From positions 1-54,729 of the forward strand of contig JAQXDE010000043.1 of NCBI GenBank assembly GCA_029251525.1: a DNA stretch of 54,729 bases. Direction: 5' to 3'. Source of the stretch: Saprospiraceae bacterium. Its GTDB lineage: Bacteria; Bacteroidota; Bacteroidia; Chitinophagales; Saprospiraceae. The position numbers and the translations under genes were made by a program. Below are positions 19,270-24,071 of the stretch, piece after piece (within the stretch, counting starts at the first letter, position 1; every line of letters begins with the position of its first letter). The notes beneath the pieces are model-generated. The model was not told the origin of the DNA, did no database searches, and was given only the letters and a program-made list of their open reading frames with translations.

Positions 19270-19804
19270 TCAATGCCGAGTTAATGGGTGCTTCAACCCA
19301 TACTTAGTAGGCTTCCATAATTGTTTGACGAAATTAATAATGCTCTTATCCCAATTGGATAATTTTCTTTTTTACGATTTAGAACTAAAAGATGCACCGC
19401 ATCATGATTTTTTCAGATTTCGTAATTCTCAATTTAGTGATGGTGCCAAATCCTTCTTTTACAGTTGGATCAACTCCCATTTTGACATAACATCTTGTAA
19501 AGAATTCTAGTACAATAGGCACATTACAAACTGTCGACCTAAAATAAAATTTAAAAATACCGTCGCTGATAATATTTGTAATAGATGATTTAAATAAGAT
19601 ACCACGAGCTATGGCATTATTATTTGACAGAATATTTACTTAACCAAAATTGATTATTTCATTACCATTCAAAGAGGGAAAGGTATAACTATTTCGTTTT
19701 GGTCTTACATAAAAATCATCAGTACCTCCAATTTATTTTAAGGTTTCAGCTTTTATTTTTGGAAAAAAAATCAACAAAATAATAACAGCTAAGACCGTGC
19801 GCAT
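19270..19804 (-). pseudogene. Decayed secreted protein gene, possibly a di-heme cytochrome c peroxidase remnant
   Basis: From the ATG at 19804 a frame opens with an intact-looking signal peptide (MRTVLAVIILLIFFPKIKAE). It is broken by TAA at 19733-19735 and 19640-19642 and ends at 19385. The frame continues between the stops with protein-like composition. Near its end GFGTITKLRITKSE, then after a shift a His-Asp-Gly-like MHDG remnant and a LKHP segment, recall the C-terminal region of MauG/CcpA-type peroxidases (L-R-N-I-T-K-S...MHDG). No CxxCH heme motif survives. That this is a decayed gene is likely; its identity is tentative. Confidence 0.35.
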
Positions 19805-20209
19805 AGTGTTTGTTATTTTGTGTAGATCAAAGTTTCAAACCACCTAACCTTTATTTCCACAAAAAAACTATTAGCCTAATTAACTTCATGAAGTTAAAAT
19901 TGTTGGTAGAAGAAAAAAAATGCTCCATCCCTTATTTAGGAAATTTTATAAAATTGATTATTCAATTTATATAACTCAAAAAATAGCCTTAGACATATGT
20001 ATATCAGTTTTTCTACCACACACAATTAAAAAACTTAAACAACTATTTTATTGATGGCCTAAAAGATAGAAATATTCTGCCTGCAAGGAATGTATCTTGT
20101 AGTTATTGAGAAAAATTGAGAAAAATCTGTAATTAAAAAAGGTCTAGAAAAGAATAGAAATAAAAATCCATAGGAAAGATTGGCGAACAGATATATTTAC
20201 CTAGATCGT
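19805..20209. other. 405-bp spacer with an 18-bp perfect palindrome
   Basis: TTAACTTCATGAAGTTAA at 19880-19897 is a perfect palindrome, suggestive of a dimeric-protein operator. It lies about 75 bp upstream of the decayed gene's start. The remainder is AT-rich with no supported gene. Confidence 0.4.
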
Positions 20210-20249
20210 AAAAACAAAAAAAGCTTTGCGATATACATCGCAAAGCTTT
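20210..20249 (-). terminator. Terminator of tRNA-Asn
   Basis: Perfect 13-bp arms (20220-20232 and 20237-20249) carry GCTTTGCGAT and its complement. On the minus strand a TTTTTGTTTTT tract follows. It lies just after the tRNA 3' end. Confidence 0.85.
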
Positions 20250-20256
20250 ATTTTTG

Positions 20257-20330
20257 CGCCCCCTCAAGGACTCGAACCTTGGACCTACGGATTAACAGTC
20301 CGGCGCTCTAACCAGCTGAGCTAAGGGGGC
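20257..20330 (-). tRNA. tRNA-Asn (GTT)
   Basis: A 74-nt cloverleaf on the minus strand. The 7-bp acceptor GCCCCCT pairs with AGGGGGC, followed by a G discriminator. The D arm contains GCTCAGCTGGTTAGAGC, the anticodon stem-loop is GGACTGTTAATCC with GTT, and the T arm contains GGTTCGAGTCC. CCA is not encoded. It has its own promoter and terminator. Confidence 0.97.
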
Positions 20331-21456: not shown

Positions 21457-22512
21457 TTATTCTTTATTCGCCAGTTGCCCACAAGCAGCATCAATGTCTT
21501 TACCTCGACTTCTTCTTACAGTAATCATAACATTTCTTTTACGTAAATATTGAGCGAACAAATCAATCCGGTCTTCTGATGATTTTTCAAATTCAGCACC
21601 ATCTATTGGATTATATTCGATAACATTTACTTTTACTGGAAAACGGTTACATAATTTAAAGAGATTAGCAGCATCAACTAGAGTATCATTGAAATTTTGA
21701 AAAGCAATATATTCGTAGCTAATTTTATTCTTTGTTTTTTGATAAAAATATTCAATTGCATCCATTATCACAGCCAAATTATTTTGCTCATTTATTGGCA
21801 TGATCTCATCTCGTTTTTCATCATCTGCAGCATGAAGGGAAAGTGCTAGATTAAATTTCACTTCATCATCTGCCAACTTTCGAATCATCTTCGCAATTCC
21901 TGCTGTACTTACAGTAATCCGCCTTGGAGACATATGTAACCCATCAGGCGAGGTAATCATATTTATGCTTTCCATCACACTTTTATATGCCAATAGTGGT
22001 TCTCCCATTCCCATATAAACAATATTAGTTAATGGATGACCAAATGTTTCTATAGCTTGCTGATTTACTAAAACAACTTGATCAAAAATTTCAGAAGCAT
22101 CCAAATTTCGAACTCGTTTCATTTTTCCTGTTGCACAAAATTTGCATGTCAAACTGCAACCAACCTGGGATGAAACACAAACAGTAAATCGATTATCCGA
22201 AGGAACTGGTATCAAAACTGCTTCTATCATATGCCCATCATACAATCGATATCTAGATTTAATGGTTCCATCTGCGCTACGTTGTACTTTGTCTTCTTGA
22301 ATCACATTGATGACAAAATTTTCTTCCAGAGATTCTCGAAGGTCTTTTGACAGATTTGACATTTCACCAAATACTCTCGCTCCTTTTTTCCACAACCATT
22401 CATAAACTTGTTTAGCTCGAAATTTCTTTTCTCCCATCTCGAGAAAATAATTTTCCAATGCTTCCAAGTCAAACTTGCGAATATCAATTTTTGAAATAAT
22501 TTTTTCAGACAT
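21457..22512 (-). CDS. rlmN: 23S rRNA (adenine-2503-C2)-methyltransferase RlmN
   Basis: A radical-SAM enzyme that methylates A2503 of 23S rRNA and A37 of some tRNAs. The N-terminal helical domain (FRAKQVYEWLWKKGA, about 31-45) precedes the radical-SAM cluster motif CSLTCKFC (about 120-127) with GMGEPL downstream. The C-terminal catalytic Cys lies in DAACGQL. I start at the ATG at 22512 (MSEKIISKID), giving 351 aa. A longer frame to 22548 would begin within the promoter itself, which ends about 5 bp before this ATG. Confidence 0.95.
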   Translation of the reverse strand: MSEKIISKIDIRKFDLEALENYFLEMGEKKFRAKQVYEWLWKKGARVFGEMSNLSKDLRESLEENFVINVIQEDKVQRSADGTIKSRYRLYDGHMIEAVLIPVPSDNRFTVCVSSQVGCSLTCKFCATGKMKRVRNLDASEIFDQVVLVNQQAIETFGHPLTNIVYMGMGEPLLAYKSVMESINMITSPDGLHMSPRRITVSTAGIAKMIRKLADDEVKFNLALSLHAADDEKRDEIMPINEQNNLAVIMDAIEYFYQKTKNKISYEYIAFQNFNDTLVDAANLFKLCNRFPVKVNVIEYNPIDGAEFEKSSEDRIDLFAQYLRKRNVMITVRRSRGKDIDAACGQLANKE

Positions 22513-22516
22513 AGTA

Positions 22517-22549
22517 CAAAGGTAAATCTTTGTAGTGAGTTTTTCCAAA
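22517..22549 (-). promoter_or_regulatory. rlmN promoter, implying a leaderless mRNA
   Basis: Minus strand: TTTG (22549-22546), 21 nt, TACCTTTG (22524-22517). Transcription should begin at about 22510-22513, which is the ATG itself (22512). Confidence 0.6.
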
Positions 22550-22894
22550 CTTAAGTTTCACTATATTCCTATTTTCATTTTATCAAAAAACTCATCTCTA
22601 ATCCAGTTCCATCATCCAAGATAACAATCGAGTATCTTTTTCTACCAAATAGTTCCATTGACTTTTGAAAAGCTAATAATTAAAAAAAATCAAACAGGAT
22701 ACTTTCTTATTTTTTAAAAGTTTCAGAAAAAAAAGATTTTTCTGTCATCTTTAAAATAAAATTATTTGTAACTGCCCTTTGCATTATAAAAAATTATGAT
22801 TTTTAATAAACATTCCTCTAACTGCTAAGCTAATTATTAACGAGTATTTCAGTCCAACAAAAATATTTTAGCCTACTATTATTACAGATTTAGT
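22550..22894. other. Spacer between rlmN and the small-RNA units
   Basis: AT-rich, with stops in all frames. I see no supported gene, repeat or regulatory motif. Confidence 0.4.
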
Positions 22895-22897
22895 GAA

Positions 22898-22996
22898 ATA
22901 AAAAAACCCTACATCATGCATGATGTAAGGTCATTTGGGTTTTGTGGGATAAACAAAAACACGGTATTTTCTAAATAGAATGCTGTTTCATTGTGT
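22898..22996 (-). ncRNA. Small RNA candidate 1 (tandem unit, terminator-proximal copy)
   Basis: The predicted start follows the -7 element at 23001-23008. The transcript of about 95 nt ends in a terminator whose stem contains the palindrome ACATCATGCATGATGT (22911-22926) with CCT/AAGG at the base and seven U (22906-22900). Just before the stem is the module AAAACCCAAATGACCTT, which is shared with unit 2. The 5' part differs from unit 2. No open reading frame of useful length is present. Confidence 0.5.
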
Positions 22997-23000
22997 ATTT

Positions 23001-23045
23001 CAAATATAGATACTTTTTAAATAAATAAATGTAACGAGAGTCACA
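23001..23045 (-). promoter_or_regulatory. Promoter of small RNA 1 with CRP-type box
   Basis: TATATTTG on the minus strand (23008-23001). A TGTAA-N6-TCACA box (23030-23045), one mismatch from the CRP consensus TGTGA-N6-TCACA, is centred at 23037.5, 29.5 bp upstream. No -33 TTG is present. Confidence 0.55.
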
Positions 23046-23072
23046 AAGGGTTATTGATTTTTGCTAATAGTT

Positions 23073-23164
23073 TTAAAAAAAACCTTGCATCTTACAATGC
23101 AAGGTCATTTGGTTTTAATAAAATAACTAATGATATGAGATATTTTGGGACTACTACTTTTAAA
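23073..23164 (-). ncRNA. Small RNA candidate 2 (tandem unit, upstream copy)
   Basis: A transcript of about 90 nt from the -7 element at 23169-23176. It ends in a perfect CCTTGCAT/ATGCAAGG stem (23083-23090/23097-23104) followed by eight U (23082-23075). The stem is preceded by AAAACCAAATGACCTT, nearly identical to unit 1. Unit length and internal spacing match unit 1 (about 168-175 bp apart), so the two are a diverged tandem duplication. Confidence 0.5.
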
Positions 23165-23168
23165 TAAA

Positions 23169-23235
23169 CAAATTTATATATCCTTAGAGTAAATAAATTT
23201 GATGAAAATCATACACAGGCAGTGACTTTCATCAA
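23169..23235 (-). promoter_or_regulatory. Promoter of small RNA 2 with two CRP/FNR-type boxes
   Basis: TAAATTTG on the minus strand (23176-23169). TTGATGAAAATCAT (23199-23212) is centred 29.5 bp upstream. A second box, TTGATGAAAGTCAC on the other strand (23222-23235), is centred 23 bp further away. The first box is nearly identical to those at 10962-10997. Confidence 0.6.
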
Positions 23236-23240
23236 TAGTT

Positions 23241-24071
23241 TTATTAAAAAAAGTAGTAAAGTCAATCTTAATGCATTTCTATGTATAAATAAACTAAAAA
23301 TAGCTTTCCTCTTGATTTATAAATCGTTTGATCCAGTCTAGTAGGATATGCAATCATTCACTATTCTTGATTTATCATCACAAACCTCTTTTAATATAGG
23401 ATCAAAATATTATACCATCCAACAAAAAAAGAAAAGGCTGTTCATTTTTATCCTGAAAGGATCTATACCAACTTTCTTTTGGTTTATGAAAAATCATTGG
23501 ATTTCGATAACTGAAATCTTTGTAAAAAACCATTATTTATTCCATTTTACGTTGATAATGTAATCTTTTCAAACTGAGAACACCCATTAAAATCGTCAAT
23601 TGTAGCTCTAAATTTATCATTAGACCTATTTCTCTCTAAAAATAGAATTTCTCAGTTTTTCATAAATATCAAGTTTTCCATTATTTATGATTGATAGCTC
23701 TGAATTTAAGTTCTAACCCAAAGTGAATTGTCAGATATACTTTATTTATTATTATTCTACAATTTAACAACTCAATCCAGGATTATATTACTAATCATAA
23801 TAAGTTTAGGCAATCACATATTTTTCCTAATCAGATATTACTTCATTTTGAACAAATACAATAATGTGATAGTTTCTATCGGAATTGTTTCTCCATCAAC
23901 AAAATATTTATTAACAGAGTAATATTCCTACACCTTCCTATATAACTACCAGCCTCACATTTATTATTTAAAAAAATGCCCAACTTCCTTTAATTGAGCT
24001 TTATTTTTTATTCCAACCTCCATTTCTTACTTTCACTTCGAGAATTTCATTTTTTAACCTCCAACCTTATC
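23241..24071. other. 831-bp gene-poor stretch
   Basis: AT-rich spacer before the Nramp-like gene. Short frames exist on both strands, but none shows a recognisable domain, coding-like start or promoter. A minus-strand fragment at about 23560-23660 has protein-like composition (RSNDKFRATIDDFNGC) and could be debris of a lost gene. I make no call. Confidence 0.35.

Follow-up and report, generated by a model that had tools for sequence, protein, structure and literature searches.

A putative eight-copy family of sibling small RNA genes with Crp/Fnr-type promoters in a Saprospiraceae genome

Two units on the minus strand of the window, the whole 54,729-nucleotide stretch of Saprospiraceae DNA analysed here, are likely part of a family of eight sibling trans-acting small RNA genes, co-activated by a protein of the Crp/Fnr family. 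The family occupies four unrelated loci of one genome, with six further copies located at three other loci. Judged from its sequences, it would be a new family of a known functional kind, for which a candidate activator can be proposed. The window pair had originally been read as tandem small RNA genes with CRP/FNR-like class II promoters, and this reading is now well supported: five of the six further copies have the same layout, and protein genes of the genus are preceded by the same box-to-TAnnTTTG spacing.

Two tandem units between rlmN and an Nramp-type gene

The two units follow the same plan and are offset by 168 bp, close to the approximately 170 bp of the original prediction (Table 1). 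In both, exactly 21 bp separate the CRP-type box from the TAnnTTTG element, and the box centre lies 29.5 bp from the start of that element, as had been stated. In Flavobacterium psychrophilum, TAnnTTTG occupies positions -12 to -5, according to the available part of PMC9723704. With the element set at these positions, transcription would start at 23164 in unit 1 and at 22996 in unit 2, and the predicted RNAs and T tracts agree with the transcribed regions of about 90 nt and the U7 or U8 terminators proposed earlier. The same placement centres the box on -41.5, which is a class II position for an activator. The -33 element was correctly described as absent, with no TTG or TTTG in this region of units 1 and 2 or of any of the eight copies. 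Each unit ends in a strong intrinsic terminator, whose stem begins 62 nt past TAnnTTTG in unit 1 and 68 nt past it in unit 2. Three terminator-like sites were scored, versus 0.2 +/- 0.4 in shuffled sequences; two of the three lie on the minus strand together with both units, and the plus strand also scores a terminator-like site in the terminator region of unit 1.

Table 1. Predicted elements of the two units and the gap that holds them
Feature	Positions	Strand	Remarks
Gap without a recognisable gene	22549..23993	.	1.4 kb, from rlmN to an Nramp-type gene (names by eye); holds both units
Unit 1 CRP-type box, TATGATTTTCATCAAA	23198..23213	-	8/10 defined positions of TGTGAN6TCACA; centre predicted at -41.5
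Unit 1 -7 element, TAAATTTG (TAnnTTTG)	23169..23176	-	
Unit 1 predicted small RNA	23075..23164	-	90 nt; conserved 3' module from about 23130
Unit 1 intrinsic terminator	23075..23106	-	11-pair stem 23106-23081 plus T8
Unit 2 CRP-type box, TGTGACTCTCGTTACA	23030..23045	-	9/10 defined positions of TGTGAN6TCACA
Unit 2 -7 element, TATATTTG (TAnnTTTG)	23001..23008	-	
Unit 2 predicted small RNA	22900..22996	-	97 nt; 5' TGAAACA block; 3' module from about 22957
Unit 2 intrinsic terminator	22900..22932	-	12-pair stem 22932-22905 plus T7

The gap contains traces of a two-component system. At 22574-22805 we found a response-regulator remnant (67% over 252 bases, E 1e-14; a short protein match has E 0.006), and at about 23884-23930 a weaker trace, possibly of a sensor kinase (47 matching bases, E 6e-5; E 0.04 at the protein level). 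Response-regulator and kinase frames are open at the matching locus of the relative G004 (L163). The corresponding gap measures about 265 bp between open frames in G001 and holds two genes resembling cysE and cysK in G002, and the G003 contig breaks off immediately upstream of rlmN. The rlmN match of G003 (L160, G003:C99:169-1248) has one in-frame stop codon, which may reflect a pseudogene, an assembly error or the end of the frame. Elsewhere in the window, positions 19511-20256 form another long stretch without a listed frame of at least 60 amino acids, ahead of a tRNA gene (20257-20330, minus strand).

Eight copies of a 3' module, seven with the shared promoter layout

Further copies were sought by promoter and by DNA similarity. 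The promoter pattern box-N21-TAnnTTTG, with 16 fixed bases and at most two mismatches allowed, occurs at 22 sites in the genome, versus 5 for the reversed pattern used as a control. Seven of the 22 sites run into a common 3' module, namely those of units 1 and 2, copies A and C on contig C32, D1 and D2 on C61, and E on C25; of the remaining 15, 5 fall within genes that run on the other strand. Searching the genome by DNA similarity gave two further matches, on C32. Since D1, D2 and E were recruited through the promoter and A, B and C through DNA similarity, promoter and module confirm each other. Copy B, also on C32, has the 3' module and a poor box (9/16 at N21, 11/16 at N22). The spacing is N21 in seven of the eight copies, and the combined score of box and TAnnTTTG is 14-16/16 upstream of seven. 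It is at most 12/16 upstream of 26 weaker module matches, 24 from relatives and 2 from the genome itself. We built a covariance model of 60 positions and 11 pairs from the eight 3' modules. The copies match it by construction at 55-79 bits (63.6 bits, E 3.1e-8 for unit 1 and 79 bits, E 3.4e-11 for unit 2, both among the building sequences), so the informative part is the gap to the rest of the genome, where the next match, an ordinary terminator without a box, reaches 33.6 bits. Overall similarity of copy A is weak to unit 1 (z 2.0) and to D1 (z 2.1).

Across the copies, the predicted RNAs are 88-110 nt long, and their predicted folds are weakly structured outside the terminator. Of the seven copies covered by scan or script, six (units 1 and 2, A, C, D2 and E) gave a terminator and D1 gave none. 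D1 (L014 1501-1652) has a perfect box and TAnnTTTG, and the T tract of its terminator is broken. It may thus read through into D2, whose box begins 187 bp downstream of the D1 box. The terminator stem is missing from the best predicted fold of B, and this, together with its poor box and the broken T tract of D1, suggests that B and D1 may be decaying. In the alignment, 89.8% of the stem cells are paired, and 5 of the 11 stem pairs have changed on both sides versus 2.0 +/- 1.0 in shuffles, a count drawn from eight related sequences only. Further pair types do not exceed the shuffles (11 versus 9.7 +/- 0.9, with 77 of 500 reaching this value).

The original prediction of a conserved 3' module stands, but that of merely divergent 5' parts needs correcting. 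In four of the eight copies (unit 2, B, C and E), TGAAACA is found at a distance of 5-7 nt from the predicted 5' terminus; D1 has TGAAATA, and the block was not found in unit 1, A and D2. A second block, TATCCCA-AAAACC with variants, sits just before the terminator. The mean unpaired probability in predicted folds ranges from 0.41 to 0.96 for the 5' block (five copies) and from 0.52 to 0.85 for the 3' block (seven copies, E being left out as the script matched another stretch in it), indicating moderate accessibility. Being partly unpaired in these folds, the two blocks may as well be shared seeds. The earlier notion of a shared chaperone module combined with different targets is accordingly weakened, also because a search for Hfq, the one RNA-binding protein looked for, returned no match above the Pfam cut-off (best match in the genome 11.9 bits, cut-off 27 bits).

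In the mechanism we favour, a Crp/Fnr-family activator would bind each box and recruit RNA polymerase from the class II position, and sharing this activator would turn the copies on together. Nearly all copies carry the same activator-type promoter, and thus one signal probably switches on the whole set. Each RNA would then pair with mRNAs through the 5' TGAAACA block and the C-containing TATCCCA-AAAACC block, with the copy-specific middle parts adding targets. The RNAs would mostly repress translation, as is reported for FopS in the accessible part of PMC11697453.

The promoter layout in the genus and its candidate activators

The promoter pattern also occurs in four relatives from the genus, at 55 sites versus 10 for the reversed pattern; G003 alone, a 66%-complete genome, has 4 versus 3. 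We read the genes behind 46 of these 55 sites and behind the sites of the genome itself, naming them by eye unless Pfam confirmed the name, as it did for four kinds of protein encoded on contig C24 of the genome itself (MBL-rhodanese, SulP, NrfD/ferredoxin and Crp/Fnr). Among the named genes, that for MBL-rhodanese (metallo-beta-lactamase/rhodanese) recurs most often and lies behind five sites in four of the five genomes (the genome itself, G001 twice, G002 and G004). YeeE/YedE-like genes (the genome itself, G001 and G004) and rhodanese genes (the genome itself and G001 twice) follow three sites each. Single cases are SulP in G002 and, in G001, HMA proteins, a 2-oxoacid oxidoreductase and a thioredoxin gene 245 nt away; G001 and G004 each have a FixI-like copper ATPase gene behind the layout. 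Sterol-desaturase-like genes (the genome itself, G001, G002 and G004) and DUF983-like genes (the genome itself, G001 and G004) recur as well and have no evident sulfur role, and other genes lack an evident sulfur tie, for example those for DUF2202-like, purD-like and amine-oxidase-like proteins. Several layout sites lie inside genes and are chance occurrences. A terminator scan of all 55 sites in the relatives gave three terminator-like calls (L097, L127 and L129), none followed by the shared module, and those of L127 and L129 fall in open frames. At L097 (G001:C107:11750-11794, minus strand), a strong terminator is found 26 nt after the promoter site, ahead of a purD-like gene, and may be due to chance.

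Four Crp/Fnr proteins of the genome exceed the HTH cut-off, and only one of them, C24:92940, has the recognition helix SREAISR, the counterpart of SRETVGR in an alignment with CRP. In a recognition helix of the CRP type, TGTGA is read by the residues R, E and R. The C24 gene is part of a cluster (L114, G000:C24:86500-97000) in which the cysteine-rich Crp/Fnr protein is accompanied by a SulP permease, an MBL-rhodanese with the same promoter layout and ferredoxin/NrfD. The G003 homologue of this Crp/Fnr protein, 39% identical over 205 residues, has the helix SREVISR. This cysteine-rich protein is encoded behind TGTGACTCAAGTCACA-N21-TATCTTTA (L092, G003:C403:961-1005, minus strand), and the presence of the layout ahead of its own gene suggests that it is autoregulated. 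By helix, gene neighbours and the box ahead of the G003 homologue's gene, the cysteine-rich Crp/Fnr protein of the C24 sulfur cluster is the likeliest activator, in which case the RNAs would be part of a sulfur/redox-stress regulon. Because the layout precedes several sulfur or redox genes and the G003 Crp/Fnr gene, we infer that a sulfur or redox signal is likelier than carbon. Of the carbon or oxygen limitation originally suggested, carbon is unsupported and oxygen is possible, and the co-promoted genes point to sulfur and redox.

The same sibling RNAs could instead be driven by another Crp/Fnr activator, such as a cAMP-type CRP, an FNR/DNR-like sensor of oxygen or NO, or the C56 protein, with carbon, oxygen or NO as the signal, a possibility that we take seriously without favouring it. 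TGTGAN6TCACA is also the classical CRP box. The FixI-like genes of G001 and G004 and the 2-oxoacid oxidoreductase of G001 (names by eye) would fit low oxygen, and a link to sulfur is not suggested by the sterol-desaturase-like and DUF983-like genes, which recur as well. A fifth Crp/Fnr protein, encoded on C56 and scoring below the cut-off, has the helix SRETLSR, and its gene is found just upstream of a box; it could be the activator instead. The recurrence of MBL-rhodanese, YeeE/YedE-like and rhodanese genes behind the layout argues against such a switch, as do the clustering of the SREAISR gene with SulP and MBL-rhodanese and the box ahead of its G003 homologue. The other three strong Crp/Fnr proteins carry a different recognition helix (SRQTVTS or SRQTVTT). 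The most specific form of the preferred reading, a recent sulfane-sulfur/redox regulatory RNA network in which the cysteine-rich Crp/Fnr protein directly drives the eight RNAs together with sulfur genes and the RNAs repress through their seeds without Hfq, is tentative and, taken as a whole, rather doubtful. Within the genus, TGTGAN6TCACA-N21-TAnnTTTG can serve as a rule by which to search for a Crp/Fnr regulon.

Distribution, origin and relation to known sibling RNAs

A covariance search with the 3' module in related genomes, as envisaged originally, gave no family member outside the species: none was found in 198 relatives and 398 family genomes (overlapping sets), nor in the relatives when five genus genomes, including the genome itself, were searched at laxer settings. 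The spacing from box to -7 element is kept in related genomes as a promoter type, and the RNAs themselves were not found in other species. Among the non-own matches that were read (22; 24 with 3 repeats; 7 new), the box never scored above 12/16; the laxer search gave 54 non-own rows, 30 of which, at 31.2 bits or less, lie outside the box-scored set, one having been scored later. The best of them, at 55.4 bits in G145 and level with the weakest family members, is a plain terminator without a box, and the best match in the rlmN-region stretches of the relatives (G003:C99, 27.3 bits) is a terminator adjoining a tRNA gene; its box scores 8/16. DNA similarity across 119 genomes gave one short match of 28-41 bases in each of six other genomes, treated as chance. 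Three matches to a 20-base stretch in a scan of named genomes, which may omit the genome itself, were all unrelated sequence. The 17-base stretch ATCCCACAAAACCCAAA has 12 matches in viral contigs; with box scores of at most 10/16 and model scores of at most 26 bits, this recurrence looks coincidental, and a longer module pattern had 0 matches. Ten of the 12 viral matches (L195-L200 and L202-L205) share one other sequence context, and L194 has a related one. A literature search by title or abstract start, mostly outside subscription papers, returned no paper on this RNA family.

Among the genomes searched, the family appears to be confined to this species and thus looks recent and species-restricted, so cross-species conservation gives its function no backing. 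It may also be that the sequences change too fast for the covariance model to detect them in relatives. A species-restricted family could consist of relics of a recently multiplied segment, for instance a small mobile or duplicated one, with no regulatory role. The position of the window pair inside a decayed two-component locus, the alignment of the B-C pair with the window pair over 243 bases (75%) and the decay in B and D1 would all fit such an origin. We nevertheless consider relics unlikely: the copies differ by roughly 16-44%, and despite this divergence box, spacing and TAnnTTTG are kept in seven of eight copies, terminators were found in six of eight, and the stem shows some compensatory change, which argues for selection.

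A cis leader or attenuator of rlmN, or a small peptide or toxin, is very improbable. Both units lie upstream of rlmN on the same strand, but the two serial terminators are about 350 bp or more away from its frame, and the other copies either run convergently with proC or precede unrelated genes: those on C32 adjoin a thioredoxin-like gene and proC, those on C61 an AsmA-like gene (name by eye) and a GH25 gene, and that on C25 a 2-oxoacid oxidoreductase (name by eye) and a lipase gene. These four different gene contexts indicate stand-alone genes and exclude a leader role for one gene; an rlmN leader was thus rejected. The longest forward frame in any of the eight RNAs has 21 codons. Unit 2 and C share a similar 13-17-codon frame across the module, and another, of 18-21 codons, is shared by D1 and D2, as conserved DNA would give, but no forward frame is common to all eight copies, in line with the original statement that no coding frame explains the units. 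A peptide or type I toxin was rejected on the same ground.

As sibling small RNAs, the family would by analogy work like known co-activated sets (csRNAs, LhrC and Bacteroides FopS), yet it matches none in Rfam. Across the entire window and at the three other loci, nothing but tRNAs exceeded the gathering threshold, and the six matches from a permissive scan of 22500-23600 all stayed below it; known RNA families were rejected on this basis. The csRNAs of Streptococcus comprise five closely similar small RNAs that a single regulator, CiaR, controls within one genome, as described in the accessible text of PMC4507080. They belong to a different phylum and depend on a response regulator rather than on a Crp/Fnr-type box, a sequence comparison having been made through Rfam as a whole only. 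LhrC has C-rich single-stranded seeds. It is a multicopy family of Listeria whose activation relies on LisR, in the portions of PMC4132741 and PMC5880928 consulted. Its two-component activation is unlike the Crp/Fnr-type box of the present family, in which no Rfam small RNA family exceeded the threshold. FopS/GibS of Bacteroides thetaiotaomicron is likewise multicopy, with 14 members, in Bacteroidota; it represses by pairing near start codons and has RbpB as its RNA-binding partner, according to the part of PMC11697453 available. As described there, FopS RNAs are about 65-70 nt long, have canonical sigma promoters, share a 5' seed and are conserved in Bacteroidaceae, whereas the present RNAs have greater predicted lengths and a box at -41.5 without a -33 element; what they share is a 3' module plus an activator box, and copies were found in one species only. 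This distinction follows from the description of FopS, not from a direct sequence comparison. HcpR belongs to the Crp/Fnr family. The SnoA locus of B. thetaiotaomicron links an RNA to this regulator in Bacteroidota, but SnoA, antisense to the hcp promoter, is present at a level independent of HcpR, as given in the available text of PMC13370916, while the present copies are intergenic, multicopy and equipped with their own box. FopS, the comparison case within Bacteroidota, uses ordinary promoters as far as its description extends; the present family, with eight natural copies in one genome, mostly under the same promoter and in varied states of decay, offers a test of how sibling RNAs originate, diverge and act without Hfq.
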